Assembly: GCF_900172225.1 (NCBI RefSeq)
Contig: NZ_FWFO01000004.1
Coordinates: forward strand, 248,001-312,000
DNA: 64,000 bases
Reading direction: 5' to 3'
DNA from: Falsiruegeria litorea R37
GTDB taxonomy: Bacteria; Pseudomonadota; Alphaproteobacteria; Rhodobacterales; Rhodobacteraceae
The notes below the pieces were generated by a model that saw only the letters and a program-made list of their open reading frames with translations, was not told the origin of the DNA and did no database searches. The stretch's first letter is position 1. Each line of letters opens with the position of its first letter. Position numbers and translations under genes: made by a program. This document shows, one piece after another, positions 33,924 to 59,360 of this stretch.

Positions 33924-34118
33924 CTCCCGCCCGTCGATCAGGCATCAAAGATGCCCTCCTCCCGTTGGGCCGGGCCGCGCTGCGCGCGGCGGTTGGCGCT
34001 TGTGACGAACCAGATGCCTCAAGCGGGGCCGCGCCGAGCCAAAGGCGAGGCGCCCGGCCCAAGGCCGTTAGCGGTGCTGGCGCAGCCAGGATCGCTCGGG
34101 CGCGGGAGCACCCCCGTC
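33924..34118. repeat. Composite copy (R3) of the gene-end palindromic repeat
   Basis: This fills most of the 315-base gap between the SDR stop and copA. The left part, read on the plus strand, has CTCCCGCCCGTCG (33924-33936), hairpin GGCATC-AAA-GATGCC (33941-33955), and CTCCTCCCGTTGGGCC followed by a GCCGCGC-TGC-GCGCGGC stem. The right part, read on the minus strand, begins with GACGGGGGTGCTCCCGC three bases after the SDR stop and contains a second degenerate TTGGGCC stem-loop with TTT loop. It appears to be two facing, diverged copies of the element seen at 57758 and 59227. I see no gene here. Confidence 0.75.
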
Positions 34119-34121
34119 CAA

Positions 34122-34883
34122 TCAGTGTCGACCGTCGATCTGTCGTTCCATCAGTCGCTGAAAAAGGCGCGGGGACAGGCTGTTGACCCACCACGCCGCG
34201 CGCGCGATGCGGCCGACCGGGATCATGGGTCGGGACTTGCGCAATCCGGTCAGGATCTCCGCTGCCGCATCTTCGGGCGTCATGTAATCCATTCCATCCG
34301 TGGCAGATCCGGGTCGTGCGGTGCCGTCCTCTTGCCGCTGGTCATTGCCAATGTTCGTGGCCACAAAAGACGGCGCGGCGATCAGAGTGCGCACGCCGTG
34401 CTCCTTCTCCTCAGATCGCAGCGATTTGAAGAACCCTTCGAGCGCATGTTTTGATGCGGCATAGGCGGTTCGGTGATAGAGGGGCGAGAACCCTGCCACG
34501 GAAGAGATTGCCAGATGCGTGCCCTTGGCCGCCCGCACTGGTGCCAGCAGGTGGCGCGCCATGGCAACTGCGCCGAAATAGTTGATCTCGAACACTTTGC
34601 GATGGCTGACGTCATCCGTGGCGTCAAAGGCTCCGATCTGGGTGATGCCCGCGTTGTAGATGGCGAGGTCGACCCGGGGAAACCGCTCGGCGATCTGCGC
34701 CATGGTGTCGTCAAGCTGCTCAGGATTGGTCAAATCGCAGTGCATCGGGAACTGTGTCTCGCTGGCCTCAACCCCTGAGATGTCGAGATCGACAAGCACG
34801 GTTTGCCAACCATCGGCTTGCAGGGCCGTCGACAGCGCGCGCCCCAAACCGCCCGCACCACCAGAAATCACTGCTGTTTTCAT
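34122..34883 (-). CDS. Short-chain dehydrogenase/reductase
   Basis: A 253-residue classical SDR: TGxxxGxG-type loop (VISGGAGGLGRAL), NAG in IYNAGITQIGAF, catalytic Ser in ISSVAGFSPL and YxxxK in YAASKHAL. It oxidises or reduces a hydroxyl or keto group with NAD(P); the substrate is unknown. It is the last gene of a four-gene unit (monooxygenase, symporter, epimerase, SDR), overlapping the epimerase by 4 nt. Its stop is followed after 3 bases by the palindromic repeat. A C-terminal hydrophobic tail (about 220-245) could touch membrane. Confidence 0.9.
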   Translation of the reverse strand: MKTAVISGGAGGLGRALSTALQADGWQTVLVDLDISGVEASETQFPMHCDLTNPEQLDDTMAQIAERFPRVDLAIYNAGITQIGAFDATDDVSHRKVFEINYFGAVAMARHLLAPVRAAKGTHLAISSVAGFSPLYHRTAYAASKHALEGFFKSLRSEEKEHGVRTLIAAPSFVATNIGNDQRQEDGTARPGSATDGMDYMTPEDAAAEILTGLRKSRPMIPVGRIARAAWWVNSLSPRLFQRLMERQIDGRH

Positions 34884-56959: not shown

Positions 56960-57748
56960 ATGGAACAGGCAACGGATTTTCTGGCCGAGAGCGAGGCGCT
57001 CAATGCAGCGTTTGAGGGTGTCTCGGGTAACCAGTGGGACACGGAAACCCAGTTCAAGGGGTGGACCCTGAATGATGTGTTGGTGCACTTACACTTCTGG
57101 AACCAGATGGCGGATCTGTCCCTGATGGACGAGGGTGCCTTTCAGGCACGTCTCGCCGAGACGTTTGCCGGGATCGGTAAGGTCGGATTTCGGGCGACTG
57201 AAAACAGCATGATCACCCTGCGCGGCGAGGAATTGCGCGCGGCTTGGCAAGAGCTCTATCGAGACATTGGCGCCCGCTGGGTCGATCTGGACCCCAAGCA
57301 ACGCGTTAAATGGGCAGGCCCGGACATGTCGGTGCGGTCGTCAATCACGGCCCGGCAGATGGAGACTTGGGCCCATGGGCAAGAAGTATTCGACATCCTT
57401 GGACTGAAGCGTCAGGAGCAGGATAGGGTCAAAAACATCGTTGTGCTGGGCGTGAACACCTTTGGCTGGGCCTATAAGGTCAACGGGCGTGATGTGCCTG
57501 CGGCCATGCCCAGACTGGAGCTGACCGCGCCGTCTGGTGCGATCTGGGAATTCGGCGAACCGGGTGACAACAAGATCAGCGGATCTGCGGTAGAGTTTGC
57601 GCAGGTATCGGCCCAAACGCGGAACGTCGCGGACACCGATTTGGTGGCGGAAGGACCGATCGCCAGAGAATGGTTGTCGATTGCCCAATGTTTTGCCGGA
57701 GGGCCGGAACAGCCCCCTGGCAAGGGACTGCGCCACCGAGTGAGCTGA
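56960..57748 (+). CDS. TIGR03084-type DinB-like protein
   Basis: A 262-residue protein of the DinB/maleylpyruvate-isomerase-like four-helix fold, TIGR03084 group. The N-terminal helix block has LNDVLVHLHFWN, carrying His ligands, and a later RQMETWAHGQEVFDILG repeats the His pattern; the C-terminal beta part (residues 160-250) is of SCP2-like character. Some relatives are thiol-dependent isomerases. It starts one base after the nitronate-monooxygenase-like stop and closes the co-directional series; a palindromic repeat follows after 9 bases. Confidence 0.83.
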   Translation: MEQATDFLAESEALNAAFEGVSGNQWDTETQFKGWTLNDVLVHLHFWNQMADLSLMDEGAFQARLAETFAGIGKVGFRATENSMITLRGEELRAAWQELYRDIGARWVDLDPKQRVKWAGPDMSVRSSITARQMETWAHGQEVFDILGLKRQEQDRVKNIVVLGVNTFGWAYKVNGRDVPAAMPRLELTAPSGAIWEFGEPGDNKISGSAVEFAQVSAQTRNVADTDLVAEGPIAREWLSIAQCFAGGPEQPPGKGLRHRVS

Positions 57749-57757
57749 ACCGCAGAA

Positions 57758-57893
57758 GACGGGGGTGCTCCCGCCCGTCGTCAATGTTTCTAACGAAACA
57801 TTTCCTCCCGTTGGGCCAGGCTCAGGTGGGCTTTGCCCACCTGAGCCTGGCCCCCTGCCGTCCGCAGGACGCAAGGCCGATAGGCCGCGCAGA
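57758..57893 (+). repeat. Gene-end palindromic repeat, copy R1
   Basis: A 136-base element starting GACGGGGGTGCTCCCGC nine bases after the previous stop. Substructures in order: GACGGG/CCCGTC arms, AATGTTTC-TAAC-GAAACATT hairpin, CTCCCGTTGG spacer, a perfect 19-bp stem (57813-57831 with 57835-57853, TTT loop), CGTCC-GCA-GGACG hairpin, and GGCC-GATA-GGCC. It is nearly colinear with R2 at 59227-59360; the long stem differs from R2 at seven of 19 positions but stays perfectly paired. No protein-coding signal. Confidence 0.9.
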
Positions 57894-58059
57894 TTATAAA
57901 GAGGTCGGTTACTTATTCGGACAGTTGCGGGTCAAGGGAGAAGTCCAAAAAGAAAAGGGACGTTGCGTAGTCCCAAGAGGACGCCGCGTTATCCAGATTG
58001 GTTTGAAACATCAGCACAGGTAACATGTTGGCAACTTGCATTTTTGGAGGACGCGTAAG
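57894..58059. other. Spacer upstream of the second acyl-CoA dehydrogenase gene
   Basis: This completes the 311-base gap after the DinB-like gene. It is AT-richer than its surroundings, contains a GGGAC/GTCCC hairpin near 57958-57975, and ends with TTTGGAGGAC as ribosome-binding sequence. I could not identify a convincing promoter or gene. Confidence 0.5.
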
Positions 58060-59217
58060 ATGACGCTCTTTACCCCGACGGCCAATTGGATCACCGAAGA
58101 ACACAAAATGTTTGCCGAAATGTCCGGCCGGTTTCTGGATGACGAACTGGTTCCGAACATCGAGACCTGGAATGGCAATGGCGTGGTTGATCGCGCGTTT
58201 TGGAACAAGGCGGGCGAAGCTGGTCTGATGGGTGGCACGATCGCCGAAGAATACGGCGGTGTTGGTGGCGGCATGGGGTTTGACTCGGTCCTGATGTATG
58301 AACAGGCCGCCCGCGGGGACAGTGGTTGGGGCTTTGGCATCCAGTCCATCGTCATGCATTACATCGCGGGCTACGGCAGTGAAGAGCAGAAACAGAAGTG
58401 GCTGCCCAAACTGGTCTCGGGCGAAATGGTTGGCGCGATTGCCATGACCGAGCCAGGCACGGGATCCGATTTGCAGTCCGTGCGCACGACCGCCGAGAAG
58501 GATGGCAACCACTACAAGATTAACGGCTCCAAGATCTTTATCACCAACGGCCAGACCGCAGATCTGATCATTGTCGTTGCCAAAACCGACAAAACCCAAG
58601 GGGCCAAAGGCGTTTCCCTGATCGGGGTCGAGACGGATGGCACCGAAGGGTTCCGCCGCGGCCGCAACCTCAAGAAACTGGGGATGAAGGCCAACGACAC
58701 CGCCGAGCTCTTCTTTGAAGACGTCAAGGTGCCGATGACCAACTTGATCGGCCCGGAAGAGGGGCAAGGGTTCTACCAACTGATGAAACAGTTGCCTTGG
58801 GAGCGCCTGACCATCGGAATCATGGCTCTGGGTGCCATCGATTTCGCCATTGCAGAGACAGTGAAATACACGCAAGAGCGCAAGGCCTTTGGTCAGCGCG
58901 TGATGGATTTCCAGAACACGCGCTTCAAGCTTGCGGAATGCAAGACCAAGGCGGAACTGCTGCGCAGCTTTGTCAACGACTGCATCGCGCGACTGGAACA
59001 GGGCAAGCTGGATGCAACCACGGCCTCGATGGTGAAATACTGGGGGTCAGAAGTGCAGAACGAAGTGATGCACGAGTGTCTGCAACTCTTTGGCGGTTAT
59101 GGCTTCATGATGGAATACCCCATCGCCCGCCTCTATGCCGACGCTCGCGTCCAGATGATCTATGGCGGCACCAATGAGGTGATGAAAGAGCTCATCGCCC
59201 GCTCGCTGGACGTCTGA
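58060..59217 (+). CDS. Acyl-CoA dehydrogenase (AtuD-like position)
   Basis: A 385-residue acyl-CoA dehydrogenase: MTEPGTGSDLQSVRT for FAD binding, GFGIQSIVMHYIAGYGSEEQK and the C-terminal LQLFGGYGFMMEYPIARLYADARVQMIYGGTNEVMKELIAR, with the classical final Gly-Gly-Thr motif. It would make the 2,3-enoyl-CoA needed before the carboxylation step, as citronellyl-CoA dehydrogenase AtuD does. ATG 58060 with GGAGGACG upstream. It follows the carboxylase series after a palindromic repeat, and is itself followed by R2. Confidence 0.93.
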   Translation: MTLFTPTANWITEEHKMFAEMSGRFLDDELVPNIETWNGNGVVDRAFWNKAGEAGLMGGTIAEEYGGVGGGMGFDSVLMYEQAARGDSGWGFGIQSIVMHYIAGYGSEEQKQKWLPKLVSGEMVGAIAMTEPGTGSDLQSVRTTAEKDGNHYKINGSKIFITNGQTADLIIVVAKTDKTQGAKGVSLIGVETDGTEGFRRGRNLKKLGMKANDTAELFFEDVKVPMTNLIGPEEGQGFYQLMKQLPWERLTIGIMALGAIDFAIAETVKYTQERKAFGQRVMDFQNTRFKLAECKTKAELLRSFVNDCIARLEQGKLDATTASMVKYWGSEVQNEVMHECLQLFGGYGFMMEYPIARLYADARVQMIYGGTNEVMKELIARSLDV

Positions 59218-59226
59218 GCAATACAA

Positions 59227-59360
59227 GACGGGGGAACTCCCGCCCGTCGTCGACGTTTCTGGCGAAACATCTCCTCCCGTTGGGCCGGGCAGGCTCGGGC
59301 AAAGCCCGAGCCTGCCCGGCCCCCGCCGTCCGCAGGACGCAAGGCCGACAGGCCGCGCAG
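59227..59360 (+). repeat. Gene-end palindromic repeat, copy R2
   Basis: A 134-base element starting GACGGGGGAACTCCCGC nine bases after the acyl-CoA dehydrogenase stop, ordered as in R1. The long stem is 59282-59300 paired with 59304-59322 around AAA: perfect over 19 bp. Short hairpin GTTTC-TGGC-GAAAC, then CGTCC-GCA-GGACG and GGCC-GACA-GGCC at the end. Directly followed by a GTTGCAAGGT/ACCTTGTAAC hairpin (59361-59387). Confidence 0.9.

Follow-up and report, generated by a model that had tools for sequence, protein, structure and literature searches.

The systems closest to the element reported here are REP-type repeats and intrinsic bidirectional terminators. REPINs (or BIMEs) are presented in the available part of PMC3116915 as inverted doublets with a variable spacer, which occur in many extragenic copies, carry compensatory changes and are randomly spread through extragenic space. 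Other REP papers do report a bias towards gene ends and convergent genes (PMC3733652 and PMC1525189, in their accessible sections). The CGTC-tagged REPs of alphaproteobacteria, which have no dedicated transposase, occupy positions downstream of genes, for the most part in tandem or convergent gaps and often within 20 bp of a 3' end; their stem of 8-9 bp with a loop of 4-5 bases adjoins an unpaired CGTC and is followed by a short tail that is mostly CCA (PMC3733652, same sections). Intrinsic bidirectional terminators are described, in the portion of PMC5381666 at hand, as gene-end hairpins that undergo compensatory evolution with G.U intermediates. The family analysed here is of the REP/BIME kind, and it is placed in neither the REPIN nor the CGTC-tagged REP family, each comparison failing for at least one of the defining features tested. 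It is best read as an undescribed family: the literature searched (titles and abstract openings, a coverage that leaves absence from print unproven) contained no description of it, nor did the available parts of PMC4809877, PMC2864571, PMC12306157, PMC2267715 and PMC1525189.

The window is a stretch of 64,000 nucleotides from Falsiruegeria litorea R37, in which the preliminary description had reported two palindromic repeats, R1 and R2. Their coordinates and letters match the sequence, and the two have their flanking motifs in common. Both repeats start nine bases past a stop codon (TGA 57746-57748 for R1 and TGA 59215-59217 for R2) and contain a perfect stem of 19 bp (57813-57831/57835-57853 in R1, 59282-59300/59304-59322 in R2). 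Compared with dinucleotide shuffles, the folding of the two strands gives z-scores of -8.3 and -8.7 for R1 and of -5.9 and -5.9 for R2, and none of 200 shuffles folds as well. The window also contains a type A copy that was absent from the preliminary description (33924-34108) and stops 13 bases short of where a minus-strand gene, called at 34122-34883, ends. The features of the three copies are the following:

57768-57817, minus strand: unit X of R1, with CTCCCGCCCGTCG, the P2 hairpin (57783-57802) and CTCCCGTTGGGCC; folding of the complement strand is favoured
57813-57853, no strand assigned: P3 of R1, perfect 19-bp stem, loop TTT
57855-57892, plus strand (by analogy with Y): unit Z of R1, CTGC-[CGTCC GCA GGACG]-CAA-[GGCC GATA GGCC]-GC-GCAG
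59237-59286, minus strand: unit X of R2, with the P2 hairpin at 59252-59271
59282-59322, no strand assigned: P3 of R2, perfect 19-bp stem of another type, loop AAA; stem body kept in three congeneric genomes
59326-59360, plus strand (assumed as for R1): unit Z of R2
33924-33971, minus strand: unit X of the third copy (type A), with P2 at 33939-33955
33972-34055, no strand assigned: 84-base middle of the type A copy, made up of the arms of the GC-rich P3 and unconserved sequence
34056-34108, plus strand: unit Y of the type A copy, with the P4/P5 hairpin

Further copies are numerous. The motif pair of R1 and R2 is found 18 times in the genome of the strain (4.69 Mb, 18 contigs) and its reversed control is not found, whereas the short motifs alone, searched in the window with 2 mismatches, are not above chance (3 matches each versus 3.9 and 3.5 expected). 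The core of unit X, CTCCTCCCGTTGGGCC, gives 124 matches in this genome with at most 2 mismatches (control: 7). In stretches of this genome that total 447 kb, 113 copies displaying both X motifs were recovered. With at most 1 mismatch, the core has 103 matches in this genome, 110, 115 and 106 in three congeneric genomes, 0 to 14 per genome in other genera of the family and one match in each of two genomes outside the family; overall, 18 of the 101 genomes are matched. The core exceeds 100 matches throughout one genus, with none to dozens elsewhere in the family. A covariance model of X is present in 37 of 248 family genomes (E <= 0.001), in a search that scored at most 23 candidates per genome under strict filters.

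Each copy is composed of unit X, which contains the covarying hairpin P2, and of the adjoining GC-rich stem P3. An inverted far unit was recognised in 72 of the 113 copies, Y in 49 (type A) and Z in 23 (type B, including R1 and R2). The 41 copies of type C, where neither Y nor Z was recognised at the thresholds used, are a mixed class that includes some diverged Y. On its folding strand, X has the organisation GGCCCAAC-GGGAGGA-P2 (usually 8 bp)-GACGAC-GGGCGGGAG, and Y the organisation GGCCCAAGnCCG..CTGAC-GCA-GTCAG..CGGGCGCGGGAG; X and Y have only their ends in common. The distance from X to Y in type A is of 25-136 bases, mostly unconserved. A check for terminal inverted repeats of the MITE kind gave the termini CTCCCGC and GCGGGAG for type A and no right end for type B. 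Among 88 distinct P2 regions, the loop on the favoured strand is GUCA or GCCA in 31, whereas GCAA, the loop typical of RNA, accounts for 13, which counts against an RNA role. The idea of a tiny reading frame, with its ATG placed behind GGAGGAG, was dropped, since by eye it occurs only in some P2 types.

Like the CGTC-tagged REPs in the accessible sections of PMC3733652, the family is alphaproteobacterial and lies downstream of genes, and no dedicated transposase of the Y1 type is present in G000 to G003. The hairpin resembles theirs in part: the C-rich strand of X carries CCCGTCGTC followed by a stem of mostly 8 bp and a 4-base loop, with CCCGTCG upstream of P2, but the stem differs or the loop has 3 bases in several P2 types, and the CGTC does not always adjoin the stem. 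In contrast to those REPs, the CCA tail is absent (P2 is followed by CTCC or similar), the conserved cores are long, and there are a second large stem and a partner unit unlike X. The main text of PMC3733652 mentions neither Ruegeria nor Silicibacter, Rhodobacter or Roseobacter. No Rfam family matched the window at the gathering threshold; the best match below it, RF01528 CC3513 (a Caulobacter sRNA; full length on the minus strand of R2, 32.3 versus 40 bits), looks like a match to generic GC-rich hairpins. Two other candidates were set aside. GTTGGGC resembles GTTRRRY, which we take to be the half-site motif of attC, and these half-sites face the wrong way. The CCUCCUCCC motif, presumably that of the CcsR/cuckoo RNA, lies on the non-folding strand of X and not in a loop.

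The 19-bp stems of R1 and R2 differ at seven positions, and the count from the sequence verifies that all seven differences are compensated. The R2 stem is nevertheless a distinct stem type rather than an R1 stem with seven point compensations: its body is identical across the four congeneric genomes G000 to G003, and the AGGCTCA type seen in R1 is found in 70 of 91 type B copies (hand count of the listed copies). True compensation was detected when orthologous places were compared, with CAGGTGGGC/GCCCACCTG in G000 and G001 versus CAGATGGGC/GCCCATCTG in G002 and G003 for R1, and with the stem base GGGCC/GGCCC versus GGACC/GGTCC (G003) for R2. The first hairpin of R1 and R2 (GACGGG..CCCGTC) is no feature of the family; the bases 5' of CTCCCG differ among copies. 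Concerning the P3 loops of type B, TTT is found in 52 of 91 copies and AAA in 13, and the G002 orthologue of R1, itself a TTT copy, has AAA; hairpin inversion could account for this switch. A GCCCCYTCTWCGTG-like insert of about 10 bases separates P3 and Z in a subset of type B from several genomes (for instance L115, L135 and G000:C2:71145) and may track exchange between copies. At L200, near G000:C1:263501, another long and perfect hairpin, ACCCCACTTCTGGC..GCCAGAAGTGGGGT, comes after the X copy, an arrangement that was not noticed in the other copies inspected.

The proposal that the structure is under selection is supported by covariation, by G.U polarity and by the places common to species. 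In P2 of X, the 8 pairs all change on both sides among 36 distinct sequences, which were chosen for diversity from the 65 unique copies with a P2 region of 25 nt (the length found in 73 of the 113 copies; other lengths were excluded). The proportion of pairing cells is 95.8% versus 80.4% in shuffled alignments and the covariation score is 0.651 versus 0.357, values that none of 500 shuffles reaches, and sliding the partner arm abolishes the covariation. Only the measure of further standard pair types is not above the shuffles (161/500). Unpaired stems in copies elsewhere, a lack of gene-end bias and an absence of further copies, any of which would have spoken against the preliminary interpretation, were not found.

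The mismatched pairs indicate which strand is favoured. With G.U and A.C scored alike, P2 on the C-rich strand comprises 745 Watson-Crick, 129 A.C, 13 G.U and 12 other pairs, that is a G.U:A.C ratio of 129:13 on the complement. This ratio is 65:13 for the 67 distinct stems, 45:4 when the outermost pairs are excluded, and 113:7 in the type B set, a biased set of 91 sequences (23 copies from this genome and 68 from named contigs, the latter collected with an exact pattern). On the strand opposite to that of X, the hairpins P4 and P5 of 51 Y units comprise 470 Watson-Crick, 69 G.U, 4 A.C and 18 other pairs. From these opposite polarities, which are counts of sequences and not of independent events, X and Y are seen to be shaped for opposite strands. 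The polarity is unclear for P3 (G.U:A.C of 1:3 in the copies of this genome and 20:4 in all 91) and for Z (10 G.U and 7 A.C over both hairpins), whose strand is assumed to be that of Y by analogy. Against a reading at the RNA level, G.T also prevails over A.C in single-stranded DNA. The main rival is a single-stranded-DNA repeat of the REPIN type, for which we see a rather low likelihood: a transposase acting in trans would recognise strand-specific hairpins, which the G.T polarity and the GNA/GNNA-type loops would suit, and gene ends would be tolerated targets.

Below P2, unit X displays the series G10-C41, G11.A40, A12.G39, G13-C38, G14.A37 and A15.G36, in which the G.A pairs are predicted to be sheared. 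The step distal to P2 (11.40/12.39) is near-invariant, with G.A in 106 and A.G in 112 of the 113 copies, and the step adjoining P2 is looser (90 and 76). Among 24 copies from other genera (26 such loci, of which L292 and L300 were left out as incomplete), the corresponding counts are 21, 23, 18 and 14, and the pair 13-38 between the two steps covaries (G-C 19, U-A 3 and A-U 2). A compact, conserved and RNA-like unit with the purine-rich segments GGGAGGAG and GGGCGGGAG might also be expected of a source of small RNAs, processed as protein-bound 3' fragments acting in trans. This is highly improbable, about a hundred near-identical cores being found beside many different genes.

The bias to gene ends is borne out by the copies recovered. 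Convergent genes surround 73 of the 113 copies versus 111 of 765 background pairs (Fisher 6e-28), and divergent genes surround a single copy versus 111 of 765 (Fisher 3e-6). The other 39 copies lie between tandem genes, without orientation bias (21 versus 18), and no copy is found inside a gene. Genes were called with our own ORF caller, and the background (543 tandem, 111 convergent and 111 divergent pairs) was taken from the window and from the G001 and G002 stretches. Some gene ends in the gap for 112 of 113 copies versus 654 of 765 background pairs, and the end of the X-side gene is at most 60 bases from X in 73 copies. Of the 26 X loci of the family search (two from G000 or G001; L292 and L300 excluded), 14 are convergent, one of them overlapping a called gene, 12 are tandem and none is divergent; at 8 of them the genes on either side are both transcribed in the sense of the non-folding strand of X, which, like the unbiased orientation in tandem gaps, counts against an RNA role. 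As only 9 of 62 convergent gaps contain the element (window plus G001 and G002 stretches), it is no general gene end.

This distribution departs from the random extragenic spread of REPINs. A gene-end and convergent location is however general for REPs, according to the accessible sections of PMC3733652 and PMC1525189, and by itself gives no support to an RNA role; it is equally what the REPIN-type rival would expect. The enrichment in convergent gaps would also agree with a DNA-level site (cruciform, gyrase or nucleoid protein) of the sort put forward for REPs, which takes up the supercoils of convergent gene pairs; in P3, where 1709 of 1739 pairs are Watson-Crick, either strand can form a nearly perfect stem. 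We consider such a site improbable, as a double-stranded or cruciform structure leaves unexplained the opposite polarity of X and Y and the one-sided G.A steps.

The comparison between species shows that the places of the copies are largely kept. Each of the four congeneric genomes has both R1 and R2. In G034 (87% protein identity) the places of R1 and R2 are empty, although X occurs elsewhere in this genome; in G008 the place of R1 is empty and the contig ends before that of R2. These empty places are too diverged for a comparison of target-site duplications. Both flanks could be aligned for 17 of the 113 copies, versus 400-kb stretches of G001 or G002, and all 17 places contain X in the same orientation (the flanks of one, C1_1571505, are aligned by short pieces only). 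Four further copies have one-sided flank alignments and none is a clear shared place: X near the aligned flank of C1_1682024 has the opposite orientation in G001, C3_143068 and C4_142497 have short matches without X nearby, which are probably paralogues, and at the G002 place of C1_829968, the one copy between divergent genes, no X could be recognised. A clean empty place within the genus was sought and rejected, as a G002 copy without G000 counterpart faces a gene-sized stretch there instead. The flanks of the copy G001:C1:358899 are far apart in G000 (C1:1298785 and C1:61608), and the element lies at a synteny break. This copy and the G002 copy missing from G000 count against a fixity of places.

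The hairpins are less stable than the places. At the 17 orthologous places, the 29 core bases show 0-4 differences (mean 1.1), whereas the identity of P2 is 0.577 versus 0.575 at unrelated places (permutation p 0.46). A similar P2 is kept at 3 of the 17 places (0.84-0.92), including both type B ones; C1_1325329 and C1_771358 have a middle and a Y whose orthology can still be recognised, and a P2 that has been replaced. Stepwise compensation as the sole source of the P2 differences thus finds no support, orthologous P2 being on average no more alike than unrelated ones. We interpret this pattern as an exchange of short tracts between copies, although it may have arisen by other routes. A more far-reaching reading, which we hold to be doubtful, is that the elements form a novel class acting at mRNA 3' ends in both directions: two unlike RNA modules in inverted order would each act in the transcript running out through them, the G.A helix would bind a dedicated partner, and the hairpins would be swapped by short-tract gene conversion with the places fixed.

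These results bear on the REPIN-type rival in both directions. The layout is REP-like, as had been suspected, with inverted doublets of conserved units around unconserved middles in many extragenic copies; compensatory changes occur in REPINs too (available part of PMC3116915), and the profile of more than 100 core matches per genome in one genus with none to dozens elsewhere also speaks for this rival. C1_829968 without recognisable X in G002 and the G002 copy without G000 counterpart would agree with mobility. Different from REPINs are the two unlike units instead of one REP, the size of about 125-220 nt, the opposite polarity of X and Y, the 17 of 17 two-sided places common to species and the lack of RAYT in the high-copy genus. 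A Y1 (RAYT) match was detected in 2 of 10 genomes examined (G010 and G018), and no PF01797 protein in G000 to G003, the genomes with more than 100 matches. The analysis thus lends no support to a REP that is still being moved by a RAYT of its own; the absence of a Y1 transposase counts against a RAYT and not against every mobiliser.

The element shares with the intrinsic bidirectional terminators of PMC5381666 (portion at hand) gene-end hairpins, compensatory evolution and G.U intermediates. It differs from them by its long conserved unpaired cores, by its dispersion as a repeat family and by the lack of a U-tract. Inspection of the printed copies revealed no U-tract directly after a hairpin: Y ends in GCGGGAG followed by mostly C-rich bases, X in GGGAG and Z in GCGCAG. 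U-tract terminators are moreover scarcer where the element is present. In the 62 convergent gaps that lack the element they follow 38 of 124 gene ends; in the 74 that contain it, the figure is 16 of 148 with the element masked, which leaves less sequence to scan, or 25 of 148 without masking (Fisher 6e-5 and 0.009, respectively; about 3% are expected after shuffling). Counted by gap, a simple scan detected an intrinsic terminator in 27 of the 62 that lack the element and in 18 of the 74 that contain it, and none in 91 of the 136. At the R2 place of G034 (L281), where R2 is absent, a terminator-like hairpin with a T-run directly follows the stop codon of the acyl-CoA dehydrogenase orthologue. 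Against a role in 3'-end formation, certain copies, such as C1_787110, are themselves preceded by an ordinary terminator.

Taken together, the location at gene ends, the scarcity of U-tract terminators beside the element, the comparison of R2 with its empty place in G034 and the opposite polarities of X and Y lead us to favour, tentatively and with slightly less than even confidence, a bidirectional gene-end element of Rhodobacterales that would form or protect mRNA 3' ends in both directions. A full copy would act through its two unlike conserved units, inverted around the GC-rich stem so that X faces either Y or Z. Each of X and Y would fold in the sense of the transcript running out through it, and Z is assumed to do likewise by analogy. 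At a convergent pair, provided that the element is transcribed, each mRNA would first traverse the near unit by its C-rich face, which is not folded, and would then enter the far unit by its folded face. From the lack of a U-tract we infer that release would be Rho-dependent or otherwise factor-assisted, and that the far hairpin, in X with its tandem G.A steps, would stop 3' exonucleases or be held by a protein.

REP-like gene-end repeats have long been debated as selfish DNA or as 3'-end machinery. The signature of this family, with opposite polarities of X and Y, shared places, exchanged hairpins and no RAYT, makes the question testable. If the RNA reading is true, the family would add a 3'-end element without U-tract in a setting where 91 of 136 convergent gaps show no intrinsic terminator.
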